From Bacteroidales bacterium (lineage in GTDB: Bacteria; Bacteroidota; Bacteroidia; Bacteroidales; F082), in the NCBI GenBank assembly GCA_016290215.1, contig JAEETH010000019.1, positions 1-52,382 on the forward strand: a stretch of 52,382 nt of DNA, read 5' to 3'. The notes beneath the pieces were generated by a model. That model worked only from the letters and a program-made list of their open reading frames with translations. It did no database searches and had not been told where the DNA came from. A program made the translations under genes and the position numbers. Shown one piece after another: positions 8,742-49,027 of the stretch. The first letter of the stretch is position 1; every line of letters starts with the position of its first letter.

Positions 8742-10019
8742 TCACCCCAACAGCCAGTCAATGGCGGAAACAACATGTATTTTGGTGCCATCGACCTCAA
8801 TGTCTCTTGTGGGCGAAAACGTGACAAGGGTAAGGCTGTTGCATTTCAAGTCCTGCGAGGCTTTCAGCATGGCCGAGGTCTCACGATTAAGGGCTTTCTC
8901 TTTCTCAATGTCGTATGCCACTTGTATCAATTCAACAGGTCGGTTACGGTTGCAGACAACGAAATCCACTTCTTTCGAACGGGACGTAGGCTTGTAATAA
9001 TATACATCAAGAAATTCCTTCGTGCATCGACGCAGCAACTCAATGTAGACCACATTCTCCAAACGCCATCCTATGTTTTCCCCTGCCATGAAATAGCTTT
9101 GGTTGTTTTCGAGTCCCGTGTCAACAACGTATGATTTCTCACCTTGTATCCGCTCGCGACTTTTATAGGAAAACTTCGGCAACAATTGTATCAAAAATGC
9201 TTGCTGCAAATAATCGACATACTTCCTTAACGTCTTGTCCGTCACACCCAACACCTCCGACAAATCCTCATAATTGACGATTTGGCAGGCATTGCTGATT
9301 AGATAATAGGCGGTTTTCTTCAAAGCGTCCATGTTGCGTATCTTGAAGCGCCGCTGTATGTCTTTTTGCAATACGGCATCCAACAAACTTTGTACATAGC
9401 CTCGTTTGTTATTCATAGCCAGCATTTCAGGGAATCCACCTGTATTGATGTATTCCATGAAAGCACTTTTGCGTTCGGCCTCTGCTTTTGTGGTGATGGC
9501 AACCGTATCTATCTTATTCATAGCGCAATACTCACGATAAGAGAAAGGATACAGTCGTATTTCGTTATAGCGCCCCGTCAAATGCGTCGCCAATTCACCG
9601 CTGAGCAACTTGGCGTTACTCCCAGTCACGAAAACATGCATGCCACTTCGCAACAACCTGTTGACAAAAAGATACCATCCGTCAACATCTTGTATTTCAT
9701 CCAAGAAAATATAGCGAACGTCAGTACCATAAAGCTGGTATAGACACGAAAGCATTGTGTTGAGATCCTCAGTTTGCATTCCCGATAACCGGTCATCATC
9801 GAGATTGGCATACGCATACGCTATCCCCTGCCCTTTCAGCACTTTGTGACATAGTGTGGATTTCCCACTGCGGCGCACACCTATCACCACTTGGGCCAAT
9901 GAGCTTTCAAACTCAAACAAGTCTTCCTCTTTGCGGTCAACCCATGACTGAGGTTGAAAGCCAAGAACATCCTCTTTCTGCTCTGCAAGTACTTGAACAA
10001 GTGTCTTTTCGTCTATCAT
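8742..10019 (-). CDS. AAA ATPase with DUF4143 C-terminus (ATPase 1)
   Basis: 425 residues from ATG at 10019. Walker A is GVRRSGKSTL; Walker B/sensor regions are RYIFLDEIQDVDGW and HVFVTGSNAKLLSGELATHL, followed by the AAA_14 signature GRYNEIRLYPFSYREY. The C-terminal DUF4143 region has a winged-helix-like part and an ending related to PD-(D/E)XK folds (SKEVDFVVCNRNRPVELIQV), though the usual ExK is degenerate here. An upstream TTG (10043) would overlap the -7 promoter box, so the ATG was chosen. The function of this widespread family is not established. It lies downstream of the CobW gene in the same direction but has its own promoter and a three-copy 32-bp repeat array between 10065 and 10150. 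A related gene with a similarly built array occurs at 38329. Confidence 0.88.
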   Translation of the reverse strand: MIDEKTLVQVLAEQKEDVLGFQPQSWVDRKEEDLFEFESSLAQVVIGVRRSGKSTLCHKVLKGQGIAYAYANLDDDRLSGMQTEDLNTMLSCLYQLYGTDVRYIFLDEIQDVDGWYLFVNRLLRSGMHVFVTGSNAKLLSGELATHLTGRYNEIRLYPFSYREYCAMNKIDTVAITTKAEAERKSAFMEYINTGGFPEMLAMNNKRGYVQSLLDAVLQKDIQRRFKIRNMDALKKTAYYLISNACQIVNYEDLSEVLGVTDKTLRKYVDYLQQAFLIQLLPKFSYKSRERIQGEKSYVVDTGLENNQSYFMAGENIGWRLENVVYIELLRRCTKEFLDVYYYKPTSRSKEVDFVVCNRNRPVELIQVAYDIEKEKALNRETSAMLKASQDLKCNSLTLVTFSPTRDIEVDGTKIHVVSAIDWLLG

Positions 10020-10040: not shown

Positions 10041-10048
10041 CAAAGATA
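10041..10048 (-). promoter_or_regulatory. -7 box of ATPase 1 promoter
   Basis: Minus-strand TATCTTTG, 22 bases before the chosen ATG. The -33 region falls inside the first unit of the 32-bp repeat array, so the repeats are well placed to affect initiation. Confidence 0.65.
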
Positions 10049-10064
10049 CAACTATTTATTAATT

Positions 10065-10150
10065 ATTCCGATAAAATGTCATTTTTTAGGAACTATATTC
10101 CGATAAAATGCACATTTTTGGGAATTATATTCCGATAAAATGCAGTTTTT
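10065..10150 (-). repeat. three-copy 32-bp palindromic repeat array upstream of ATPase 1
   Basis: ATTCCGATAAAATG begins at 10065, 10097 and 10129, a period of exactly 32. Each of the first two units is a near-palindrome: TTCCGATAAAATG, a 1-2 base centre, then CATTTTT..GGAA. The third is truncated and runs into the CobW stop codon (10149-10151). The array lies between the CobW coding end and the ATPase -7 box. Similar length, copy number and place to the array at 38204, but a different sequence. Confidence 0.9.
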
Positions 10151-11408
10151 ACCTCGTCAAGCAAGCATCCAGATCCTTCACCAGGGCTTCCTTGTCTAAG
10201 TGCTGACCGATGAAGACGAGCTTCTGCATGCGGTCGCCGTAGGTGTCGTCCCAGTCGCGACGGAGGGTGGGCTCGCGGTCCATGAAGGCCGCCAACTCGT
10301 CGGCGGGCATAGTGGCAAACCACTGACCGGCGTCACGCAGCTGCACCTGCTTGCCTGCCTGCTCGAAGATGTAGCAGTTGTCGTATTCGTTCTTGAAGTA
10401 GCAGATGCCCTTCACACGAATGACATTTTTCGGCATCTTGCGCGCCACAAACTCATCGAAACGCGCCATGTTGAACGGCTCGCGACGGTAATACACGAAA
10501 GTCCCGATGCCGTATTCCTCCACCTCGCCACCTTCGTGGTCGTGGTGATGATGGTGGTGATGGCCGTGCTCCTCTTCCTCGTCGTCATCATCATGGTCGT
10601 GATGATGGTGATGATGCTCGTGGTCATGGTCATCGTCATCATCATCGTGATGGTGATGTTCTTCTTCCTCTTCCTCCACGGCACCCTCGACGCCTTTGAT
10701 CCAAGCGGCAGAAGTAGCCACCTTGTCGAAGTCGAACATGTGGGTGTTGAGAATCTTGTCGAAGTCGACGTCGCCATAGTCGCAGGTGATGATTTCGGCG
10801 GTGGGCTGCAAGGCACGGATGATGCTCTTGACGCGACCCAACTCCTCAGGCGTGACCTCAGAGGCCTTATTGAGCAGGATGATATTGCAGAACTCGATTT
10901 GCTGGATGACCAGGCTTTCCAAGTCGTCCTCAGCCAGGTTTTTCTTCATCAAGTCATCACCGCAGCCGAACTCACTCTGCATACGCAGTGCATCGACGAC
11001 GGTCACGATGCAGTCAAGAATCGGAATACCGTCCTTGGTGAGTTGCCATGCCATGTCAGGGAAGGAACAAATCGTCTGGGCGATAGGCTCCGGCTCGCAG
11101 ATGCCGCTGGCCTCGATGACGATGTAGTCAAAGCGCTGCATAACGATGATCTCATGCAGCTGCTGGATGAGGTCCATTTTCAAGGTGCAGCAGATGCAAC
11201 CGTTCTGCAAGGCGACCAAGCTGTCATCTTTTTGGCCGACCACGCCGCCTTTTTCAATCAAGTCTGCATCGATGTTCACTTCGCCTATGTCGTTGACAAT
11301 CACGGCGAATTTGATACCTTTACGGTTATTCAATATCTTGTTGACCACAGTGGTCTTGCCGCTACCGAGGTAACCAGTGAGCAGCAATACGGGAATATCT
11401 TTTTTCAT
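10149..11408 (-). CDS. CobW/COG0523-family GTPase, putative zinc metallochaperone
   Basis: 419 residues. GTP-binding loop GYLGSGKTT (12-20), the metal-binding CxCC motif of the family (C71-I-C73-C74), the FDYIVIEASGICEPEPI switch region, and LLNKASEV as the NKxD-like motif. A long His/Asp/Glu-rich stretch (about 240-297) separates the GTPase from the C-terminal CobW_C domain, which runs from IGTFVYYRREPF. COG0523 proteins deliver zinc or other metals to client enzymes; the metal-binding linker suggests zinc, but this is inference. No Zur-type operator was recognised. The start is supported by a -7 box 26 bases upstream. Confidence 0.9.
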   Translation of the reverse strand: MKKDIPVLLLTGYLGSGKTTVVNKILNNRKGIKFAVIVNDIGEVNIDADLIEKGGVVGQKDDSLVALQNGCICCTLKMDLIQQLHEIIVMQRFDYIVIEASGICEPEPIAQTICSFPDMAWQLTKDGIPILDCIVTVVDALRMQSEFGCGDDLMKKNLAEDDLESLVIQQIEFCNIILLNKASEVTPEELGRVKSIIRALQPTAEIITCDYGDVDFDKILNTHMFDFDKVATSAAWIKGVEGAVEEEEEEHHHHDDDDDDHDHEHHHHHHDHDDDDEEEEHGHHHHHHHDHEGGEVEEYGIGTFVYYRREPFNMARFDEFVARKMPKNVIRVKGICYFKNEYDNCYIFEQAGKQVQLRDAGQWFATMPADELAAFMDREPTLRRDWDDTYGDRMQKLVFIGQHLDKEALVKDLDACLTR

Positions 11409-12114: not shown

Positions 12115-12206
12115 GACGCGGGACACGGGACTGCGGGACACGGGACATTCAGTCAGCAAACTCTAAGACCTTTGTCTCGCGTCCCGCGTCTGATCGTCTC
12201 GCGTCT
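12115..12206. repeat. dispersed hairpin between convergent genes, probable terminator
   Basis: GACGCGGGACACGGGAC and a second GCGGGACACGGGAC are followed by a complementary arm with GTCTCGCGTCCCGCGTC. The family recurs at 39598-39671 (GACACGAGAC ... GTCCCGTGTCCCGAGTC). It fills the gap between msrC and the LysR-type gene. Confidence 0.6.
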
Positions 12207-24400: not shown

Positions 24401-27400
24401 CCAAATGACAGCTTCGCTCCAAGCGCTTTGGCCAGTGCTGTAGATAGCGCAAACCTTCACTTTGTAGCGTTCACCTTCAATAAGGACATCGGCTCCAGAC
24501 CAAGGATCGACAGTGGTGAGCTGGCAGAACGGTTGGTCGGCAGGAGTGTCATGGTTGAAGATAGGCTCATCGTCGATGCTCGTGCACATGATCTTATAGC
24601 CTTCGAGGTGGCGTTCTTCGCGAGTGGTGTAGCCAATACCAAAGTTGATGTTGTCAACCTTGAAGCAGTCACCATCGGGGTTCACGCTGCTGTCCTTGCT
24701 GTATTCCCATCTGAAAGTGTGGGTGCCTTGGGCAACATTGAATCTGTAGTTGTTCCAACCAGCAACCTCGGCACCATGAGTGAATTGAGCTTCACCATCG
24801 ATGTAGAACATGCACTTATCCCAAGCGGTGGTAAGACCTTCACCTTGGCAGAGAGCGTCGAACTTAATCTGACCAGCTTCGATGTAGTCAACAGTGGCTT
24901 CGATAGCTGAAGTGCTGCTGGAAACGCCGGCATTGCCGCTCTTGATGCAATAAGTGGTGTGGAAAGGACCTTCTTGAACAACGGTCCACGGATATTCAGC
25001 GTCATTCACGAATTCGAAGTCGCCGAAGCCGTTTTCGAAGTCGAGGACTGCGGGCTGATCATCAGGAGTGATGGGTTGCCACATAGCCCAACCAGTGCGG
25101 CTGACGTAGACGTTCTTCACGCTGTAGATGATTTCGGTCAACACATAGCGGAGTTCGCGATCCGTCCAGATGGGTTCTTCCACTTGGAGGGTCTCATAAC
25201 CAGGCAGTGAAACAGTGACCAGATAGGTGCCCTTACGGAAGGTCGGGAACACATAGTGGCCAGTGGCATCCAAAGTGATAGGAGCCTGAGGATGATTCAT
25301 CTGCTCACCAGGCATCAGGTTGAGGAAGCTCACCACGGTGCCTTCTGGGCTGTCGGCGCTGTTCAACACAACGTTGACAGAGACATTGTTGAGGTACATA
25401 TCCTTGTCGATGCAAGGCTTGCAGTCGGTATGCCACACGATTTCGCTTTCGCGTTCTTCGTTAGGATACTCAACGCGCGGGTTGTTCGGGTTGTAAGGAT
25501 AGTTGCCACGATACACAGCGCTCACGCCATACTTGTAGACACCCGTCGGCACTTCAGGCCAGTTCACATCGAAGTAAGAGGTGTCGGGACGCCAAACGGT
25601 GGCCAAGAACGTGGTGTTCTCATCGGTGTAAGGACCATCATTGTAGCAGTCAGTGCGGTAGATGTTGTAGTGGTGCAAGGCACGGTTGTTAGCTGCATCT
25701 TCAGGATGACCGACGAACACGATGTTGTCGATGGTGAAGCAGTCGCCGGTGGGGTTCACGCTGCTGTCCTTGGTGTAGCTCCAAGTGAAGCTGTGGGTAC
25801 CAGCAGTGATAGGCGTGCTGAAGGCTTGCCATCCAGCGAGGTCGGCACCATGGCTGAAGATGGTGTTGCCATCCATCACGAAGTCGCAGTGATCCCAGAA
25901 GGTGTAAGAACCTTCACCTTGGCAGTTGTATTCGAAGCTGAACATACCGTCTTGCGGGATGTTAACAGTCACGGAGATTGCAGAAGTGCTGCTGGCGACA
26001 CCGGCATTGCCGCTCTTCAAGGCATAAGTGCCTTCGTGAGCATCGGTAGTCAGCGTCCAAGGATAGGTAGCATCGTTCTGCCAAGCAAACGGGGTGTTGT
26101 CCCAGTCTTCGAAGTTCTCTCTCAGTTCGGTGAAGAAGTTGAAGTCCCACCAAACTTGAACGAGGGTGTCACCTTGCACGCCAGGCACGTAGATAGGCTC
26201 GGCGCAAACGTGGGCAGGAGCCAGGAAGAGCTCGTCCATGATGAAGTCAACATGGTCGGTCAGCTCTTGGTAAACGATATCCAAAGGCAGCGGGTGTACC
26301 GTGATGGCATCCTGATAGCCTTCCATTTGGGCGACGGCAATCGGATAAGTGCCAACATGGATAGCGCCTTCATAGTAACCGTTCTCGTCGGTGACGAAGG
26401 TGTAGGTTTCAGGAGCGTTGAATTCGTTGAAGCCTTGGATGGTGACAGTGACACCGCCAATCGGGGTGACGCCATCTTGTTCGTAAGCGGTACCGCTAAC
26501 GTTACCATTGCCGCTCACCCAAATCTCAACTGCGTTCGACTTCGGGCTTTCGCCTTCGTCGTAAACAGCGGTCACTTCGAACACATAACCATGGCCGACA
26601 TAGTATTCGCCACTCATGTTGTAAGTCAGCAGGTCTTGAGGAATGACCCAACTGGTGGTCTCAACATTGTCAGGAGTGTCATAGACACGCTCGCCATCCA
26701 TGTAGACGCGATAACGACGGTAGGTACGGTCGTTGTTGCGATCAACGATAGGATCCCAAGTCAAGGTCACAGTCTCTTCATATTCGAAGATACGGGTGTT
26801 GGTGGCGGTCAAGTTCTGAGGAACGTTGAAAGTGGTGGTGAAACCAAACACAGGACCCTGGGTGTAGCATTCCCATTCAGTGCCTGGGTTGCTACGCTGG
26901 TCGATACGCCAGAAGTAGTTGGTGTTGTTCCAAAGTTGGTAACCGTTGGCTTCCAAAGCTGCGCTGATGTTGAACGACTCTTGCAGGTCGCTGCTCCATT
27001 CGGTCACGAAGGTGGCAGGATGCTCGGTGTCGATTTCATCTTCCGGCCAGTAGGTGCTGCTGAACACGAGACGCCATTCGTTGGCGTAGTCGTTGAGCTT
27101 CCAGCGGAGGATCAGGTCGTCAGGAGAGATGCCCCATGCGTTGTCTTCAGGATAGATGTTGGTGACAGCGGGAATCGGGCAAGGAAGTTCTTGGTAATTG
27201 ATAGTCACTTCGAAGTCGGGATCCGTTGAGGAGGCCACCAGGTAGTAGGTGCCCTTCAGCACGTTCAGGTTCTCGATGACAGGACCGGCTGAGAAGCTGG
27301 TAGGAATCTCAGGAACGACAGGTGTAGGATCATCGCCAGGTGTGGGATCATCACCGGGAGTAGGATCATCACCAGGTGTAGGATCATCACCAGGTGTAGG

Positions 27401-29830
27401 ATCGTCGCCAGGTGTAGGATCATCGCCAGGTGTAGGATCATCGGGAGTGACACTGGTGCCAGTGTTCATAGTGACATCGTCAAGCAAAACCGAGTATTGG
27501 TTATAAGCATGATGATGGAAAGCAATCCAAACATTTTGTCCAGCGTAGGCACTCAGATCAAGAGTGACATATTCCCAATTGCCAAGACGATTGTTAAAGT
27601 TGAAATTACCAATACTATTCTGTCTATTGCTTCTACGCTCACCTCCATTGTTCCAAATGGGAGTAAAGTCCCAAGCAGTAGGCGATGCAACAGTAGCAAT
27701 GCAGACTTCCATATAGTCAGGATAATCGTAAACCAACTGATCATGGTAGAAGCTCAAAGTGGCATTGTTTTCGAGAGCATAAGCTTGAGGAGAAACGAGG
27801 TAGTTGTCAGCATCGACCGCGCCATAACCATTGACATAAGAGACACCAATAATAAAGTTGTCTGAGCCATTAGCACCATTACCTTCGACTCCAGTGTACA
27901 AATCAGAAACCATCATCCACGCAATGCCATCACCATCGTTGTCAATATTGGTCCAGCCTTCAAGGTCGTTCTCGAAGTTGTAGGCGTACTCATCGCGGTT
28001 GCCATTGATACGGCCACCTTCGAAGACGATGTTGTCGACTGCAAAATAGTCACCCATAGGATTGACGCTTCCATCCTTTTCGTAAATCCAGCTGAAAGTG
28101 TGCTCACCAGCGGCCACTTCGGTGCTGAAATTATTCCAAATTTGAGTAGCGCCTTCGCGGAACATCTCTTCGCCATCGATCAGGAAAACACATTTGTCCC
28201 AAATGAGGTAGTCGCCTTCACCCCAAGCGGCATAGTCGAAGCTGACGGTACCGTTGGTGGTGTAATTCACCGTGGCGGTGAAGGTGGAAGCACTGCTGGC
28301 AACACCAGCATTGCCGCTCATCATGCCATAGCTGCCCGTGTAGGCGGCATCAGCGCTGATGTACCAAGGATAGGTAGCATCATTGGTGTAGTTGCCGAAC
28401 TGGCTGAAGTTACCCGTCTCGAAGTCAATGGTGGAAGGAGCCACAGGGGCGCCACCGCCGCCAGCGTTGAACGGACGCATGGTGTAATTGTTGTCAGCCA
28501 TCGGGCCAGGACGGCCGGCGAAGTCCTCACGATAGAGGGCCACCTTGCCGTTGGCACCATCGCTCACGTAAGCGTTGAGCATGATGTCGTGGTCAGCCGT
28601 GAACTTCATCACAGCGTCGTAGCCTTCCGGAATCTCGGGGAAGGGCAACGTGTAGTTGTCATGCAGGTTGTACTCAACCTCGGGGTTCACCTCGTTCCAC
28701 ATCTCGGAGGCATACATGTGCCAAGTGGTACCGGTGGTGACAGTGCCGATGTTGTAGGCCTTCTCGACCACATCGGGGCAATAGGGCTGATAAGGAACAG
28801 CGATGATGTTGAAGAGGTGCGTGCTGCGCTCGGTGGTGTTCACCGCGAGCAGGCTGTTGATGACATCGGTGCTGGTCCAGTTGATGTTGGTGGTTAGGAA
28901 GAGGTCAACACCAGGACGGCCGTTGTTTTCAACCGTGAAGTTGTACAGGTCGTCGTCAATCATGCTGAAGTAACCATTGTTGTGCAGGAAGTCAATCAAC
29001 ACAACCTCGACGTCATAATCACCGTCGTTGTAGAGGTTGAAGTGATAGGGCTCCATCCAAGCACCGTTAGGACGCTCGATGTAGAGCAGGTCGATGAGCT
29101 CACGCTCGTAGTCACCCACGCCATAATAAGCCAAGGTGTGGAGACCAGGCACATAAGCCGGTTCTGGTTCTGGGTCAACCGGCGGGACAATTTCGCCTTC
29201 GCCAGGGACGAGAGTGATGTCGTCGACGACGAACATCCACTGGCCGTCGCCGAAGTGACGGATGGCCACGTAACCTTCGCCGCTGAAAGCGCTCAGGTCG
29301 ACGGTGTACTCGTACCAAGTGCCAAAGTAGATCGAACGCACTTCTCTACCAGTCTTTTGTGCAACGGGTTCGCCGTAGCGAATCGTCCATTCGTCGACCA
29401 TGGTGAAAGCATTCGGGTCGTAGTTGTTGGTCGTTGACACGGCCACGCCGAAATGCTCTTCACTCAGGAACAGGTCGGCTCTGCTCGTAGCCCAGAAGCT
29501 GATGCTACCGCCCAGAGTCACGCGAGGTGAAACCAGGTAGTTGTCATGCTCAAGGCCAAAGAAGAGGTGCCAAAAGTCCCTCGACTGTGAAGCCAGGAAG
29601 TACTGTGAGCCGTCATGGCCATAACCTCCAAAGAGGTTGATGCCCCATGCGTTGAGCAGGCTGGATGTGGTCATCCAATCGTAGCCATCATGGTTGGCAT
29701 CGATGGTGGTCCAGCCTTGGAAGCCTCCGTTTTCGAAGTCGAATGTGTACGACGACGGAGCCTGCGCACGCGCCACGCCCATAAAGGCGAGCACGAGCGT
29801 CATCATCAAAGAAAATACTTTCTTTTTCAT
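21458..29830 (-). CDS. giant secreted multi-domain adhesin-like protein with T9SS tail
   Basis: 2,790 residues. Signal peptide 1-24. Four cleaved-adhesin/choice-of-anchor-J modules like those in P. gingivalis HagA and gingipains lie at about 28-208, 610-787, 1863-2047 and 2450-2632 (shared motifs DNYLVSPQVTLGG, EHFGVAVST, YVAIRHF). Three further copies of another module (SGNAGVASS ... GDYFAVDNIVF type) lie at about 465-608, 1240-1377 and 1593-1737. A seven-copy PTPGDD linker is at about 793-837, FN3-like segments near 1000-1100, and a carboxypeptidase-regulatory-like domain at 1107-1187. The C-terminal sorting domain starts near 2723 (LFPNPTKGNVTIQ) and ends GMYMVRVYTNE. No protease motif was recognised, so a pure adhesin or host-glycan/protein binder is the best guess. 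Confidence 0.9.
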   Translation of the reverse strand: MKKKVFSLMMTLVLAFMGVARAQAPSSYTFDFENGGFQGWTTIDANHDGYDWMTTSSLLNAWGINLFGGYGHDGSQYFLASQSRDFWHLFFGLEHDNYLVSPRVTLGGSISFWATSRADLFLSEEHFGVAVSTTNNYDPNAFTMVDEWTIRYGEPVAQKTGREVRSIYFGTWYEYTVDLSAFSGEGYVAIRHFGDGQWMFVVDDITLVPGEGEIVPPVDPEPEPAYVPGLHTLAYYGVGDYERELIDLLYIERPNGAWMEPYHFNLYNDGDYDVEVVLIDFLHNNGYFSMIDDDLYNFTVENNGRPGVDLFLTTNINWTSTDVINSLLAVNTTERSTHLFNIIAVPYQPYCPDVVEKAYNIGTVTTGTTWHMYASEMWNEVNPEVEYNLHDNYTLPFPEIPEGYDAVMKFTADHDIMLNAYVSDGANGKVALYREDFAGRPGPMADNNYTMRPFNAGGGGAPVAPSTIDFETGNFSQFGNYTNDATYPWYISADAAYTGSYGMMSGNAGVASSASTFTATVNYTTNGTVSFDYAAWGEGDYLIWDKCVFLIDGEEMFREGATQIWNNFSTEVAAGEHTFSWIYEKDGSVNPMGDYFAVDNIVFEGGRINGNRDEYAYNFENDLEGWTNIDNDGDGIAWMMVSDLYTGVEGNGANGSDNFIIGVSYVNGYGAVDADNYLVSPQAYALENNATLSFYHDQLVYDYPDYMEVCIATVASPTAWDFTPIWNNGGERRSNRQNSIGNFNFNNRLGNWEYVTLDLSAYAGQNVWIAFHHHAYNQYSVLLDDVTMNTGTSVTPDDPTPGDDPTPGDDPTPGDDPTPGDDPTPGDDPTPGDDPTPVVPEIPTSFSAGPVIENLNVLKGTYYLVASSTDPDFEVTINYQELPCPIPAVTNIYPEDNAWGISPDDLILRWKLNDYANEWRLVFSSTYWPEDEIDTEHPATFVTEWSSDLQESFNISAALEANGYQLWNNTNYFWRIDQRSNPGTEWECYTQGPVFGFTTTFNVPQNLTATNTRIFEYEETVTLTWDPIVDRNNDRTYRRYRVYMDGERVYDTPDNVETTSWVIPQDLLTYNMSGEYYVGHGYVFEVTAVYDEGESPKSNAVEIWVSGNGNVSGTAYEQDGVTPIGGVTVTIQGFNEFNAPETYTFVTDENGYYEGAIHVGTYPIAVAQMEGYQDAITVHPLPLDIVYQELTDHVDFIMDELFLAPAHVCAEPIYVPGVQGDTLVQVWWDFNFFTELRENFEDWDNTPFAWQNDATYPWTLTTDAHEGTYALKSGNAGVASSTSAISVTVNIPQDGMFSFEYNCQGEGSYTFWDHCDFVMDGNTIFSHGADLAGWQAFSTPITAGTHSFTWSYTKDSSVNPTGDCFTIDNIVFVGHPEDAANNRALHHYNIYRTDCYNDGPYTDENTTFLATVWRPDTSYFDVNWPEVPTGVYKYGVSAVYRGNYPYNPNNPRVEYPNEERESEIVWHTDCKPCIDKDMYLNNVSVNVVLNSADSPEGTVVSFLNLMPGEQMNHPQAPITLDATGHYVFPTFRKGTYLVTVSLPGYETLQVEEPIWTDRELRYVLTEIIYSVKNVYVSRTGWAMWQPITPDDQPAVLDFENGFGDFEFVNDAEYPWTVVQEGPFHTTYCIKSGNAGVSSSTSAIEATVDYIEAGQIKFDALCQGEGLTTAWDKCMFYIDGEAQFTHGAEVAGWNNYRFNVAQGTHTFRWEYSKDSSVNPDGDCFKVDNINFGIGYTTREERHLEGYKIMCTSIDDEPIFNHDTPADQPFCQLTTVDPWSGADVLIEGERYKVKVCAIYSTGQSAWSEAVIWQYEPCEHWGPVDEVTVGTQSQGNHIEWVFEHGHNQWVGPIDPDQPQGDASSFSYDCEDGMPEGWTNIDADGDGNVWVSSMTPGIYHNAGVDLTGTGHNESVAYVISGSYANQTYQALTPDNYLVSPQVTLGGTFSFWACGQDDSYCHEHFGVAVSTTGNTNAADFTTLQEWTIAAKGQGAKTRYTRSDSMRQTTWTQYTVDLSAYAGQTGYVAIRHFNCTDQFILNVDDIEMNVERGGGLSLVSGGAFYNQYAEDGVTLNFLALDNVDLRAYLLYNISKDSRFSLTAEAQYGQFVLTPASDMNNFMEEFESFYQDATYNFSLLSKYDILDRMNEWKSGVASQNYLSITMDVALRNARVENDQCINSLPFCTSDLIEFEAASTSSTAQEEGMDDGCIGSSYNPSFYHMRIHTGGPFVIHMEGHDPNNASTTRDIDFCMWGPYTEQEITSGYACTHLTGDKIMDCCYSASYTEDVYLGYPEGQHQHNTSHGSINYHEPQVGEYYVLMITNYSQQPCVIDFTKTEGEGETDCDIVVPSDIIGFLITQDGEYLDIVGPDVREYDHLGEFGEHVYCVRPIYPGPQILSDTNYYFSMGCPVCMSTNGEVVDECEAGAPLFAEVNNEFDQVHLYWAEQPEPPTPEEYSSFAEGFEGVSGQEIPADWTTIDADGDGNDWYTLNWIEVGWDENIAHGGDSWATSASYTSSALYPDNYLVSPQVTLGGTLTFWACAQDASWAAEHFGVAISTSGNTNASDFTTIQEWTMSAKSTGAMTRDTRDGGNRAGTWYQYTVDLSDYAGMTGYIAIRHFNCTDMFRLNIDDVELNVRGMGNRDGEIVAYNIYRSVDGVEYELIGTVPGDVTEYFDTPEAGTYYYQVTAVYADGCESEPAISGIDPEVNYVMVGVTGIGENSDNVNLFPNPTKGNVTIQAKGMERITVVSVLGQVVFDTELDQDEYILNMAQFNTGMYMVRVYTNEGVTVKRVTVMH
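27320..27442 (-). repeat. 18-bp tandem repeat encoding the PTPGDD linker
   Basis: About seven near-identical 18-bp units (minus strand GGTGATGATCCTACACCT type) encode repeated Gly-Asp-Asp-Pro-Thr-Pro. The high DNA identity suggests recent expansion or ongoing copy-number change. Being multiples of three, changes would not shift the frame. Confidence 0.85.
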
Positions 29831-38101: not shown

Positions 38102-38203
38102 ACGCATTTTTCCGAACCAATGGCAAAAGAGGTGGGGAAAAAGATTATTTGATGAAAAAGCCTAATGATGATTTTTCAAATTCCTTCTAACGCCCAAATA
38201 AAC

Positions 38204-38299
38204 CGCGGAAAAAATTCCGCACTATTTTGAAAAAACGAGGAAAAAATTCCGCAGAATTTTAAAAAATCGCGGAAAAAAATCCGCAGTTTTGAAAATATG
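38204..38299 (+). repeat. three-copy 32-bp palindromic repeat array upstream of ATPase 2
   Basis: CG(C/A)GGAAAAAA begins at 38204, 38236 and 38268, period exactly 32. Each unit contains GCGGAAAAAATTCCGC or a close variant (a 6-bp-arm palindrome), followed by an AT-rich spacer (ATTTTGAAAAAA type). The last unit ends 2 bases before the -7 box. Confidence 0.9.
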
Positions 38300-38301
38300 T
38301 G

Positions 38302-38309
38302 TATTTTTG
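38302..38309 (+). promoter_or_regulatory. -7 box of ATPase 2 promoter
   Basis: TATTTTTG, 19 bases before the chosen ATG. An in-frame GTG at 38299 would overlap this box and was rejected. Confidence 0.65.
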
Positions 38310-38328: not shown

Positions 38329-39495
38329 ATGGAAAGCCTATACGAACTATTCTATGCAAAACTGAACGAAACCCCGATGGGTTTCCAACGCTACCTGTTT
38401 GACAGAATCAACTGGAAAAACCGCATGATTGCCGTTTTGGGAGAACGCGGAGTGGGAAAAACAACGCTCCTACTGCAAAAGATAAAATCAGACGGCACAG
38501 ATAACACCCTGTATTTCAGTGCAGACAATATCTACTTTGCCCAACACACCTTGTTCGACACCGCCAATGAATTCTACCGCAAAGGAGGCACCAAACTCTA
38601 TATCGATGAAATCCACAAATATCCTTCATGGTCTACGGAACTGAAGATGATTTACGACAACTGCACTCATTTGCAGGTGGTTGTCACCGGCTCCTCCATC
38701 CTCGACCTCTACAAAGGCACCGCCGACCTTAGCCGAAGGGTTATTCCTTATCATCTTAAAGGCCTGTCGTTCAGGGAATATCTGGCAATGAACAAAGGCA
38801 TTGTCTTGCCTCCCGCTTCATTCAAACAAATCCTTGAACACAAAATCACTTTCCCCGAAGGCGAAAAGCCCCTGGCCTTGTTTGACGACTATCTGAGAAC
38901 AGGTTACTATCCTTTTTGGAACGAACCCGATTTCACGACCCGACTGAACAATGTCATCAACCTAACCGTCGAAAACGACATCCCCACCTACGCCAAGATG
39001 AATGTTTCTACAGCTCGTAAACTCAAGCAGTTGTTGTTCATCATCTCGCAAAGCGTACCGTTCAAGCCTAACTATACGGCCATCGGTGCCGCCATGGAAT
39101 GCGACCGCGGAAGCGTTTCCGACATGGCCTACTACATGGAAAAAGCCTGCCTAACCATGCAACTCAATCATCCTGACGATGGCATGAAGAATTTCGGCAA
39201 ACTTGAAAAAACCTACCTAGGCAACACCAACTTAGTTTACGCCTTGTCGGAAAACAAACCCGAGATAGGTAATCTTCGGGAGACATTTTTCTTGTCACAA
39301 ATGCAAGTCAACCAAAAAGTCTTCGCGGCAAAAGTCTCTGATTTTCTTATTGATGGAAAGACCTTCGAAGTCGGAGGAAAAAGCAAGGGAAAAAAACAAC
39401 TCGCCGAAGTCAAAGATGACTTTGTGGTGAAAGATGACATTGAATACGGCTATGGGAACATCATTCCACTTTGGCATTTTGGAATGAATTACTAA
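38329..39495 (+). CDS. AAA ATPase with DUF4143-like C-terminus (ATPase 2)
   Basis: 388 residues from ATG 38329. Walker A GERGVGKTTLLLQKI near residue 40, Walker B (LYIDEIHKYPSW), sensor-like VVVTGSSILDLYKG, and AAA_14 signature RVIPYHLKGLSFREYLAMN. The C-terminal domain includes a PD-(D/E)XK-like segment (SDFLIDGKTFEVGGKSKG, with D and ExGGK). Sequence identity to ATPase 1 is modest. Both have a short monocistronic layout, their own -7 box and a three-unit 32-bp array directly upstream. The biological role of this family is unknown. Confidence 0.87.
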   Translation: MESLYELFYAKLNETPMGFQRYLFDRINWKNRMIAVLGERGVGKTTLLLQKIKSDGTDNTLYFSADNIYFAQHTLFDTANEFYRKGGTKLYIDEIHKYPSWSTELKMIYDNCTHLQVVVTGSSILDLYKGTADLSRRVIPYHLKGLSFREYLAMNKGIVLPPASFKQILEHKITFPEGEKPLALFDDYLRTGYYPFWNEPDFTTRLNNVINLTVENDIPTYAKMNVSTARKLKQLLFIISQSVPFKPNYTAIGAAMECDRGSVSDMAYYMEKACLTMQLNHPDDGMKNFGKLEKTYLGNTNLVYALSENKPEIGNLRETFFLSQMQVNQKVFAAKVSDFLIDGKTFEVGGKSKGKKQLAEVKDDFVVKDDIEYGYGNIIPLWHFGMNY

Positions 39496-39554: not shown

Positions 39555-39597
39555 CCGCTCAATTCAAACAGATGAGCGAATTAAGATTACATAAAAG

Positions 39598-39671
39598 ACA
39601 CGAGACTGCGAGACAAGAGACACGAGACATGGAGCTTGTCCCGCGTCCCTAAGTCCCGTGTCCCGAGTCAA
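39598..39671. repeat. dispersed hairpin, second copy of the 12115 family
   Basis: GACACGAGACTGCGAGAC ... GTCCCGCGTCCC ... GTCCCGTGTCCCGAGTC. Arms are imperfect inverted repeats. It lies in the pheT leader. Confidence 0.55.
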
Positions 39672-43570: not shown

Positions 43571-44073
43571 AAATGAGGGCGATAGTAGCGGCATTGATGT
43601 TGGCTTTGGCATTGATTTGTCACGGTTGCGGCATTTATTCCTTCTCGGGAGCGTCGATACCCGCCGAGGCCAAAACCATCTCGGTGGACTACTTCCCCAA
43701 CCACGCACAGCTCGTCAACCCTTTATTGAGTGACAACCTCACCACTGCCCTACGCGGTGCCATGACCAGCCAAACCACATTGGACTTAGTGGAAACAGGC
43801 GGCGACCTTGCCTTTGAAGGTGAAATCACGGATTACAAAACCACCCCCGTAGCCATCACCGGACAGACCGCAGCCATGAACCGTCTCACCATCACGGTAA
43901 AAGTACGCTTTAGCAACCGCATCGATGAAACAAAAGACTTTGAGCAAACCTTCTCGCGCTACGAGGACTATCCCAGCAACCAAGACTTGAACTCGGTGCA
44001 GGAATCGCTGACTACAACGATCGTCGACCAATTAGTGGAGGATATATTCAATAAGGCATTGGTGAACTGGTAA
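43567..44073 (+). CDS. lptE: LptE-like LPS-assembly lipoprotein
   Basis: 168 residues. A lipoprotein signal (hydrophobic ALMLALALI, then CHGCGIYSFSG) and the LptE-family pattern: YSFSGASIPAEAKTISVDYF, the segment NPLLSDNLTTALRGAM, and DLAFEGEITDYKTTPVA. LptE plugs LptD for LPS insertion in the outer membrane. Its start overlaps the sigma-54 activator stop (ATGA), so the two are coupled. In other Bacteroidales the same order (activator, LptE, hypothetical, SecG) is common, from general knowledge. Confidence 0.88.
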   Translation: MKMRAIVAALMLALALICHGCGIYSFSGASIPAEAKTISVDYFPNHAQLVNPLLSDNLTTALRGAMTSQTTLDLVETGGDLAFEGEITDYKTTPVAITGQTAAMNRLTITVKVRFSNRIDETKDFEQTFSRYEDYPSNQDLNSVQESLTTTIVDQLVEDIFNKALVNW

Positions 44074-44076
44074 TTA

Positions 44077-44230
44077 TGAATGATGAATGATGAATGCGGA
44101 ATGATGAATGCGGAATGATGAATGTGGAATGATGAATGTGGAATGCGGAATGCTGAATGTGGAATGTGGAATGTGGAATGTGGAATGATGAATGCGGAAT
44201 GTGGAATGCGGAATGCGGAATGATGAATAA
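44077..44230 (+). repeat. 22-unit heptamer tandem repeat (GAATGNN type)
   Basis: TGAATGA, TGAATGC, GGAATGT and GGAATGC heptamers repeat about 22 times without interruption, starting three bases after the lptE stop codon. Degenerate at positions 1 and 7. Confidence 0.85.
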
Positions 44231-44261
44231 CGAACAACTTTAAACTATAAACTTACAACTA

Positions 44262-44301
44262 CTCTAAACTCTAAACTCTAAACTCTAAACTCTAAACTCT
44301 C
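44262..44301 (+). repeat. second heptamer repeat (CTCTAAA) before the next gene
   Basis: Five or more CTCTAAA units end 10 bases before the ATG at 44312. Changes in copy number would alter the distance between any upstream signal and the start codon. Confidence 0.75.
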
Positions 44302-44311
44302 AACTGAAAAG

Positions 44312-48727: not shown

Positions 48728-48811
48728 GCGGCTGCCGTGGTACGACAGCCCTACAGACCAATGGGACAAATTCGCCCTGGGGCTGGAGGGCTGTCACATC
48801 GTGGCAGCCGC
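48728..48811. repeat. REP pair (BIME) A
   Basis: Inward half GGCTGCCGTGGTACGACAGCC-CTAC and outward half GGAG-GGCTGTCACATCGTGGCAGCC. The 5' GTAG/GGAG tetranucleotide followed by a short imperfect hairpin is the classical REP form. First of three tandem copies (period 107-108 bases) in a 353-base gap that has no gene. Confidence 0.85.
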
Positions 48812-48834
48812 AAAAAAACCGCAAACATCAATGT

Positions 48835-48917
48835 GGCTGTCGTAATACGGCAGCCTTACAACCTAACAGGACAAATTCACCCCAGGGACTGTAGGGCTGT
48901 CACATTGTGGCAGCCGC
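48835..48917. repeat. REP pair (BIME) B
   Basis: GGCTGTCGTAATACGGCAGCC with TTAC, and GTAG-GGCTGTCACATTGTGGCAGCC. The AAAACCGCAAACATCAA spacer between A and B recurs between B and C. Confidence 0.85.
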
Positions 48918-48942
48918 AAAACACAAAACCGCAAACATCAAC

Positions 48943-49027
48943 GCTGCTGTCGTAATACGGCAGCCCTACAACCTAACGGGACAAATTCGCCCCAGGGGTT
49001 GTAGGGCTGTCACATTGGGGCTGCCGT
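48943..49027. repeat. REP pair (BIME) C
   Basis: GCTGTCGTAATACGGCAGCC-CTAC and GTAG-GGCTGTCACATTGGGGCTGCC. It ends 11 bases before the 3' end of the RAYT gene. Confidence 0.85.

Follow-up and report, generated by a model that had tools for sequence, protein, structure and literature searches.

Candidate private operators at the promoters of PDC-S01 ATPase genes in Bacteroidales

The stretch of Bacteroidales DNA analysed here, 52,382 nucleotides long and referred to throughout as the window, contains two genes for AAA ATPases, each preceded by three copies of a 32-bp repeat. The layout of the two arrays is the same and their sequences differ, raising the question of what such an array does for the gene that follows it. 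The first-pass annotation of the window suggested co-evolution of each array with its own ATPase, the array serving as a specific operator, a nucleoprotein site or the DNA target of a nuclease-like domain. We consider it probable that each array is a private multi-site operator, bound by the ATPase encoded beside it, which thereby represses its own gene.

The array upstream of the second gene, ATPase 2, is composed of the following features:

38204..38221, + strand: putative operator unit 1, CGCGGAAAAAATTCCGCA, with a perfect GCGGAA/TTCCGC dyad at 38205-38220
38236..38253, + strand: putative operator unit 2, with one mismatched pair in its dyad
38268..38285, + strand: putative operator unit 3, promoter-proximal, with one mismatched pair in its dyad
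38302-38309, + strand: -7 box of ATPase 2, TATTTTTG, read directly from the sequence
38329..39495, + strand: ATPase 2 gene, of the PDC-S01 family, with its ATG at 38329, an AAA_14 domain and a remote DUF4143 C-terminal half

The unit starts originally given for this array (38204, 38236 and 38268, exactly 32 bases apart) were confirmed both by direct reading and by TRF, which reported an array at 38200-38286 with a period of 32, 2.7 copies and 85% matches. The palindrome ascribed to every unit is perfect only in unit 1 (GCGGAAAAAATTCCGC), the other two being imperfect as listed. Similarly, the array was said to end two bases before the -7 box, which is accurate for the third 32-bp unit, ending at 38299, and not for its palindrome, which ends at 38284; the centre of this last dyad lies ~26 bp upstream of the -7 box. 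The box itself, judged against the consensus TAnnTTTG, is presumably that of a Bacteroidota-type promoter.

The other gene, ATPase 1, lies on the opposite strand, with its array 28 kb from that of ATPase 2:

10128..10142, - strand: putative ATPase-1 operator unit, distal, CATTTTATCGGAATA
10096..10110, - strand: putative ATPase-1 operator unit, middle, from sequence reading and TRF
10064..10078, - strand: putative ATPase-1 operator unit, promoter-proximal, from sequence reading and TRF
10041-10048, - strand: -7 box of ATPase 1, TATCTTTG, read directly from the sequence
8742..10019, - strand: ATPase 1 gene, of the PDC-S01 family, with AAA_14 and DUF4143 domains

TRF placed this array at 10064-10151, again with a period of 32, upstream of the gene running from 10019 to 8742, such that the correspondence of layout, with a different sequence, stands as first described. 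In the ATPase-1 array the unit is for the most part a direct repeat, and not every array in the family is clearly palindromic. These two were the only arrays of period 29-36 in the window at a TRF score of 40. They had been called convergent, a description that has to be abandoned: both ATPases belong to one large family, in which the layout is common and the motif has diverged.

The membership of this family was established from profile matches. In Pfam, ATPase 1 matched AAA_14 (E 8e-33) and DUF4143 (E 5e-24), and nothing else at E <= 0.001; at the same threshold ATPase 2 matched AAA_14 (E 6e-27), with a sub-threshold match to AAA_22, and its match to DUF4143 reached only E 0.01, below the Pfam cut-off. 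The PDC-S01 profile models of PADLOC matched ATPase 1 at E 5e-102 and ATPase 2 at E 7e-25, and in the alignment of the ATPase-2 subfamily (A2) all 81 members matched these models, as all 81 matched DUF4143 at E <= 1. PHROGs yielded no family, NCBIfam had none near its cut-off, and among solved structures there was no useful relative, the RecA entries matching only the stretch around Walker A. PDC-S01 is catalogued in PADLOC-DB as a phage-defence candidate, and experimental validation is described as still pending for most such candidates (PMC12988326). The family is a very common one, and its ATPases are suspected of being antiviral.

The window's genome is rich in such genes, with 28 DUF4143 and 49 AAA_14 matches in a profile search, and the upstream DNA of the best 30 of the 49 AAA_14 matches was oriented and read. 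Visual inspection showed, for most of them, a repeated motif of their own immediately ahead of the -7 box. Repeats were scored where two 18-mers within 150 bp upstream agreed at 15 or more positions, a measure that identified them before 26 of these 30 genes, with a spacing of 32-33 bp in 19 of the 26. Among control genes, drawn from 20 stretches (~400 kb) of the same genome, 22 of 231 had any repeat by this measure, at spacings of 14-24, 49, 63 or 69 bp, and none of the 231 had one spaced at 31-34 bp. TRF alone detected arrays before 18/30 of the AAA_14 genes, compared with 10/228 controls, and none of the 228 controls had an array of period 29-36 within 250 bp upstream at a score of at least 50. 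The 20 control stretches in their entirety contained one array of period 29-36 at a score of at least 80, with a period of 30.

The same pattern extends to homologues elsewhere, although the counts are descriptive, because related genes are not independent. Using the 18-mer measure, repeats preceded 19/29 genus homologues of ATPase 2, 26/29 genus homologues of ATPase 1, 38/80 loci in a scan of named genomes and 37/48 further regions. When 280 distinct homologues were merged, these coming from Bacteroidota apart from a few (L209, L213 and L222) whose records carry other titles, repeats were found upstream of 175/275 genes against downstream of 24/279; spacings of 20-24, 31-34 or 62-68 bp, which are helical, accounted for 149 of the 175 upstream and 12 of the 24 downstream matches. 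No direct repeat was detected by this measure for 100 of the 275, more than a third. In genomes of Actinomycetota, to which G065 with its record title Enterorhabdus belongs, repeats were upstream of 21/38 homologues against downstream of 2/37, with 17 of the 21 spaced at 22-23 or 32-33 bp. Hence the proposed survey of upstream DNA has borne out the association, as arrays precede most of the homologues examined, and are seldom found either before unrelated genes or in the downstream DNA of the homologues themselves. The expected period of 30-34 bp proved too narrow: 32-33 bp is the commonest spacing in the window's own genome, but 22-23, 40-44 and ~51 bp also occur. Chance or low complexity as the origin of the arrays is rejected by the control genes, the downstream controls and the shuffles.

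The distribution of these genes has some features of its own. Three genomes of the same genus (G048, G050 and G056) carry large expansions, with at least 23, 29 and 23 matches, respectively, to ATPase 1 alone. Among plasmid homologues from several phyla, TRF at a score of 40 found arrays in 2/14, with periods of 22 bp in Qingshengfaniella and 40 bp in Segatella; repeats of ~22 bp were seen by eye, outside this count, in plasmid homologues of Marinobacter, Agrobacterium and Ilyobacter. In MAGs titled Enterorhabdus and Atopobiaceae (L209, L222 and G065), ATPase-2-like genes are accompanied by TTGCAC..GTGCAA dyads, with an apparent sigma-70-type -10 box in L209, and 16 DUF4143 matches in G065. 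These could represent either transfer between phyla or a binning error.

The position of the repeats relative to the promoter was measured in the ATPase-2 subfamily, using a pool of 106 non-redundant proteins from which L029, a non-member, was left out except in the column-shuffle test described below. A confident pair of units was found for 89 of the remaining 105 genes, of which 80 had a recognisable -7 box. The second dyad of the chosen pair was centred 15-18 bp before the box in 50 of these 80, at 22-26 bp in 11 (nine of them at 26 bp, the kind to which the window's ATPase 2 belongs), and at 40-78 bp in 19, the last group reflecting, at least in part, the choice by the finder of a pair further upstream. 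The internal geometry is also regular. Across 47 matches to GTGC half-sites in 41 genes, the gap inside the dyad was 7 bp in 32 and 8 bp in 14, and the gap between dyads was 17 bp in 42, resulting in a period of 32 or 33. Because of these dyad gaps and this period, half-sites recur at about one and two helical turns.

For both window genes, and in the family sets, a repeated site was found to overlap the promoter of the gene itself or to lie against it. Among ATPase-1-like genes, the arrangement includes units on both sides of the -7 box (L288, L338 and L348), and the palindrome TGTCACATGTGACA between the -7 box and the start codon in place of an upstream array (L320, L339 and L346). Other palindromes lie between the -7 box and the assumed start in L327, L336 and L341.

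The motifs of the two window genes are private to them. In the 3.8-Mb assembly, which is 85% complete in 153 contigs, the exact ATPase-2 unit has three copies, all in its own array, and the exact ATPase-1 motif likewise occurs in its own array only. The next best places for the ATPase-2 motif were one with two mismatches and 19 with three, compared with nine places for the reversed control pattern; the ATPase-1 motif had two other places with one mismatch, and its reversed control had one. As exact copies are confined to the motifs' own arrays in this assembly, a regulon reading of either motif is unsupported. Between most paralogues of the genome the array sequence differs.

Close orthologues retain these motifs. 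In seven orthologues of ATPase 2 at 80-91% identity (L080 and L082-L087), dyads of the G[C/A]GG..CCGC type are kept, two to four being visible and often imperfect; an eighth, at 97% (L081), starts too near its match for its upstream DNA to be read. Two orthologues of ATPase 1 at 95-97% keep CATTTTATCGGAATA, and homologues at ~50% mostly have other dyads. In the longest alignments, upstream similarity between ATPase 2 and L082-L086 (80-82%) stops at the array, between -92 and -129 from the ATG. In L110 and L111, close orthologues of ATPase 1, and in close pairs such as L083/L084, it continues past the array into neighbouring DNA, meaning these comparisons carry no information on the array boundary.

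If each protein reads its own array, the operator sequence should follow the residues that recognise it. The segment of ATPase 2 predicted to contain them was located through its relatives:

39064..39168, + strand: predicted winged-helix segment, ATPase 2 residues 246-280, assigned via matches of relatives
39100..39126, + strand: predicted recognition-helix residues 258-266 (C-D259-R260-G261-S-V-S-D-M), the best predictor of operator sequence

In 28 relatives of ATPase 2, residues 206-290 matched HTH_Crp_2 in 13, Rrf2 in eight and MarR in six at E <= 5, with best E-values that are weak for all three (4e-4, 2e-3 and 1e-3, respectively); the best match of this region was DUF4143 itself in all 28. 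The equivalent segment of ATPase 2 had no winged-helix match of its own, and only DUF4143 at E 0.18.

Within the ATPase-2 subfamily, the single column that best predicted shared motifs, once overall identity had been removed, was residue 261, and the best 7-residue windows for motif similarity were centred on residues 258-264. The statistical support for this is modest, as 23 of 2000 shuffles of column order reached the best window, and 29, 61 and 67 did so in variants of the test; residues 247-280 account for five of the 20 best columns (hypergeometric p 0.04). When nearest neighbours were compared, the top-ranking window of the 381 began at residue 260 at each of three identity caps, scoring 14.7, 14.4 and 12.7 against 14.2, 12.9 and 10.7 for the rest of the protein. 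The window chosen in advance, 258-264, took 9th, 5th and 21st place, and with the loosest cap (0.60) its score of 13.95 was a little under the 14.18 of the rest of the protein. The equivalent analysis of ATPase-1-like proteins was not significant, with 183, 542, 308 and 1355 of 2000 shuffles reaching the best window; either a mostly asymmetric motif combined with divergent proteins accounts for this, or a different code is in use among them.

The residues that accompany each motif can be seen when the 89 genes with confident units are divided into operator classes, which were drawn after the motifs had been viewed by eye and then tabulated. Firstly, the 53 genes of the GTGC class have R260 without exception, and N261 in 52. 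Secondly, all eight genes of the AGGGA class have K260, which occurs in none of the other 81. Thirdly, the three genes of the CCGC class all have D259. The remaining 25 genes, with other kinds of motif, also have R260 in 21 cases, and N261 in eight. When sites upstream of the -7 box were counted across all 105 genes, two or more AGGGA were present in 9/9 S-K-N genes against 2/96 others, and two or more GTGC in 60/73 R-N genes against 2/32 others. The corresponding association of CCGC with D259 was weak (3/7 against 4/98). A stronger version of it, 5/7, was discarded as inflated by GCGG in the -7 region; the count shrank to 3/7 when that region was omitted.

In a tree built without the winged-helix columns, the S-K-N genes occupy two separate, well-supported places, both with AGGGA. 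D259 is found with CCGC dyads in the ATPase-2 clade and in L230, and L041 has K260 but lacks AGGGA sites. In tests of independent pairs, R-N/GTGC gave a median p of 0.039 over 12 pairs; both of the two K/AGGGA pairs went in the same direction, as did an average of 2.4 of four D/CCGC pairs (the latter with the inflated counts), each being too few for significance. These sequence comparisons support the view that, in the ATPase-2 subfamily only, operator class follows the predicted recognition-helix residues. The repeats private to the two window genes, their phasing with the helix and with the promoter, their conservation in close orthologues and the covariation in the ATPase-2 subfamily are patterns legible in the DNA itself. 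The original suggestion of a specific operator co-evolving with its own ATPase thereby gains support from upstream enrichment, from the motifs kept in orthologues and from this covariation, all at the level of sequence.

A mechanism can be proposed on this basis. In each PDC-S01 ATPase, consisting of AAA_14 and DUF4143, a winged helix would recognise a half-site that is particular to that ATPase. Two such half-sites would make up a dyad in the ATPase-2 subfamily, where the dyads, recurring every 32-33 bp, would present their half-sites on one face of the DNA. The bound ATPase would repress its own gene, keeping the level of ATPase low, until ATP hydrolysis, or a signal such as infection, remodelled or released the complex. 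The direct binding, the repression, the cooperativity and the trigger are all steps that we infer. As the array covers or abuts the promoter core, self-repression is the most likely outcome, judged from the position of the sites, with activation as the other possibility; sites on both sides of the promoter core would also suit a repressor better than an activator.

A more elaborate form of this proposal can be entertained tentatively. The ATPase's own promoter DNA might act as a private docking lattice, making the paralogues separate, self-controlled switches in which release activates both the ATPase and its gene. Were this true, each paralogue would have its own pairing of helix and half-site, in dozens of copies per cell, and part of the residue-to-base code would already be legible from sequence.

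Other explanations of the arrays differ in what they would be for. The best of them makes the array mainly an assembly platform or guard site, on which the oligomerised ATPase would constitute a resting defence complex, triggered by disturbance, with control of the promoter secondary. AAA+ proteins commonly oligomerise on DNA, and two to ~five units per gene (by eye), with the near-constant 17-bp gap, exceed the needs of simple repression; the listing of the family by PADLOC as a phage-defence candidate is also in keeping with such a role. However, most genes measured have their units at a set distance from the -7 box, and some ATPase-1-like genes have repeats around it or downstream of it, both as promoter control predicts, and there is no evidence of an effector response. 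We therefore regard a platform as unlikely to be the main role.

Much less credible is the suggestion, made when the arrays were first noticed, that they serve the nuclease-like DUF4143 domain as DNA targets; these could be self-cleavage or homing sites, for instance. The published description of PDC-S01, as an ATPase fused to a PD-(D/E)XK or PD-(D/E)XK-like domain, gives this some grounds (PMC12988326). Nevertheless, the putative motif in ATPase 1 (EVDFVV...IQVAYD) is degenerate, as it reads IQVA where a nuclease would have ExK, leaving the nuclease-target role unsupported. Of 123 ATPase-1-like proteins, 30 have the motif in a form matched by a narrow regular expression, eight with E..K and 22 with Q for E; the search is uninformative on the other 93. 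In addition, the covariation in the ATPase-2 subfamily peaks in the predicted winged helix, not in the C-terminal domain, and the sites are in register with the promoter.

The location of the repeats in promoters would equally be expected if they bound a separate host regulator, or were an element of Bacteroidota promoter architecture, though there is very little likelihood of either. Firstly, paralogues within one genome mostly have different sequences here, yet close orthologues retain theirs. Secondly, the motif tracks the ATPase's own residues within the ATPase-2 subfamily. Thirdly, control promoters lack the element, and Actinomycetota homologues also have repeats. Finally, replication iterons, which periods of 22 and 32-33 bp resemble, or a CRISPR-like array, can be dismissed almost entirely, as Pfam found no replication initiator domain in either protein, a single genome has arrays ahead of numerous separate genes, spread over many contigs, and units are few, with the motif tied to each promoter.

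The private operator favoured here has partial parallels in known systems, the nearest analogue found being RptR, the autorepressor of a defence island encoding type I restriction-modification and DarTG2 (PMC12255303). As that system is presented, the product of a defence locus represses its own promoter via three short repeats with palindromic cores; RptR itself is a dedicated 9-kDa repressor that recognises one conserved 6-bp site, TAGCTA, in 9-bp repeats (PMC12255303). This hallmark, a TAGCTA core in three adjacent 9-bp repeats, is absent from the window arrays, whose units differ in sequence and spacing. Unlike RptR, the presumed reader of these arrays is the ATPase itself; the usual spacing of its sites is 32-33 bp, and the majority of paralogues have their own site.

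A second parallel exists within the same genome. Sibling ATPases on contigs 114, 80, 134, 108, 12, 152, 92 and 63 (L432, L433 and L435-L440) have upstream inverted repeats, a different one for each gene; the four tested match PDC-S27, and the two tested match the ATPase_2 profile, one of these two PDC-S27 ATPases also having a weak match to DUF234. The resemblance lies in sibling ATPases of one genome, several of which have upstream inverted repeats differing by gene, and the difference in their being inverted repeats instead of 32-33-bp arrays, with three of nine exceeding the 95% control score. Perhaps this is the same principle in another geometry.

Iteron initiators offer a more distant comparison, as they are winged-helix proteins that read tandem sites phased at two or three helical turns, close to the promoter of their own gene. 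The window ATPases, in contrast, are without a Rep domain, and a genome contains many unlinked copies of such genes. Winged-helix proteins that regulate their own genes are already known. The first-pass annotation knew of no account of the pairing of arrays with ATPases, and no description of these operators was found in the literature searched, of which subscription papers and preprints were mostly beyond reach; the main text of PMC12988326 has no occurrence of promoter, operator, tandem repeat, autoregulat or winged helix. What appears to be new is a family-wide arrangement in which defence-like AAA ATPases would each read a private operator, by a code that is partly visible.

Many PDC-S01 genes seem to carry both their own switch and their own address, a feature that is testable now. 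Private operators suggest how 30 or more paralogues could coexist in one cell without cross-regulation. There may be many orthogonal pairs of self and operator, useful for the study of winged-helix recognition, as in the comparison of R260/GTGC with K260/AGGGA. The operators also provide a reporter-based route to the triggers of PDC-S01 proteins.

The window contains other repeats of different kinds. A 110-bp repeat at 48728-49026 (2.8 copies, 84% matches), with GGCTGTCGTAATACGGCAGCC-like stretches, lies between open reading frames, and an 18-bp repeat at 27319-27443 (6.9 copies) is within an open frame of 2790 codons on the - strand. Arrays of 7-bp and ~15-bp units are found between genes at 44072-44305, 12115-12147 and 39596-39629, and short-unit repeats of a similar kind were seen by eye to be behind several of the period-21 matches among the control genes.
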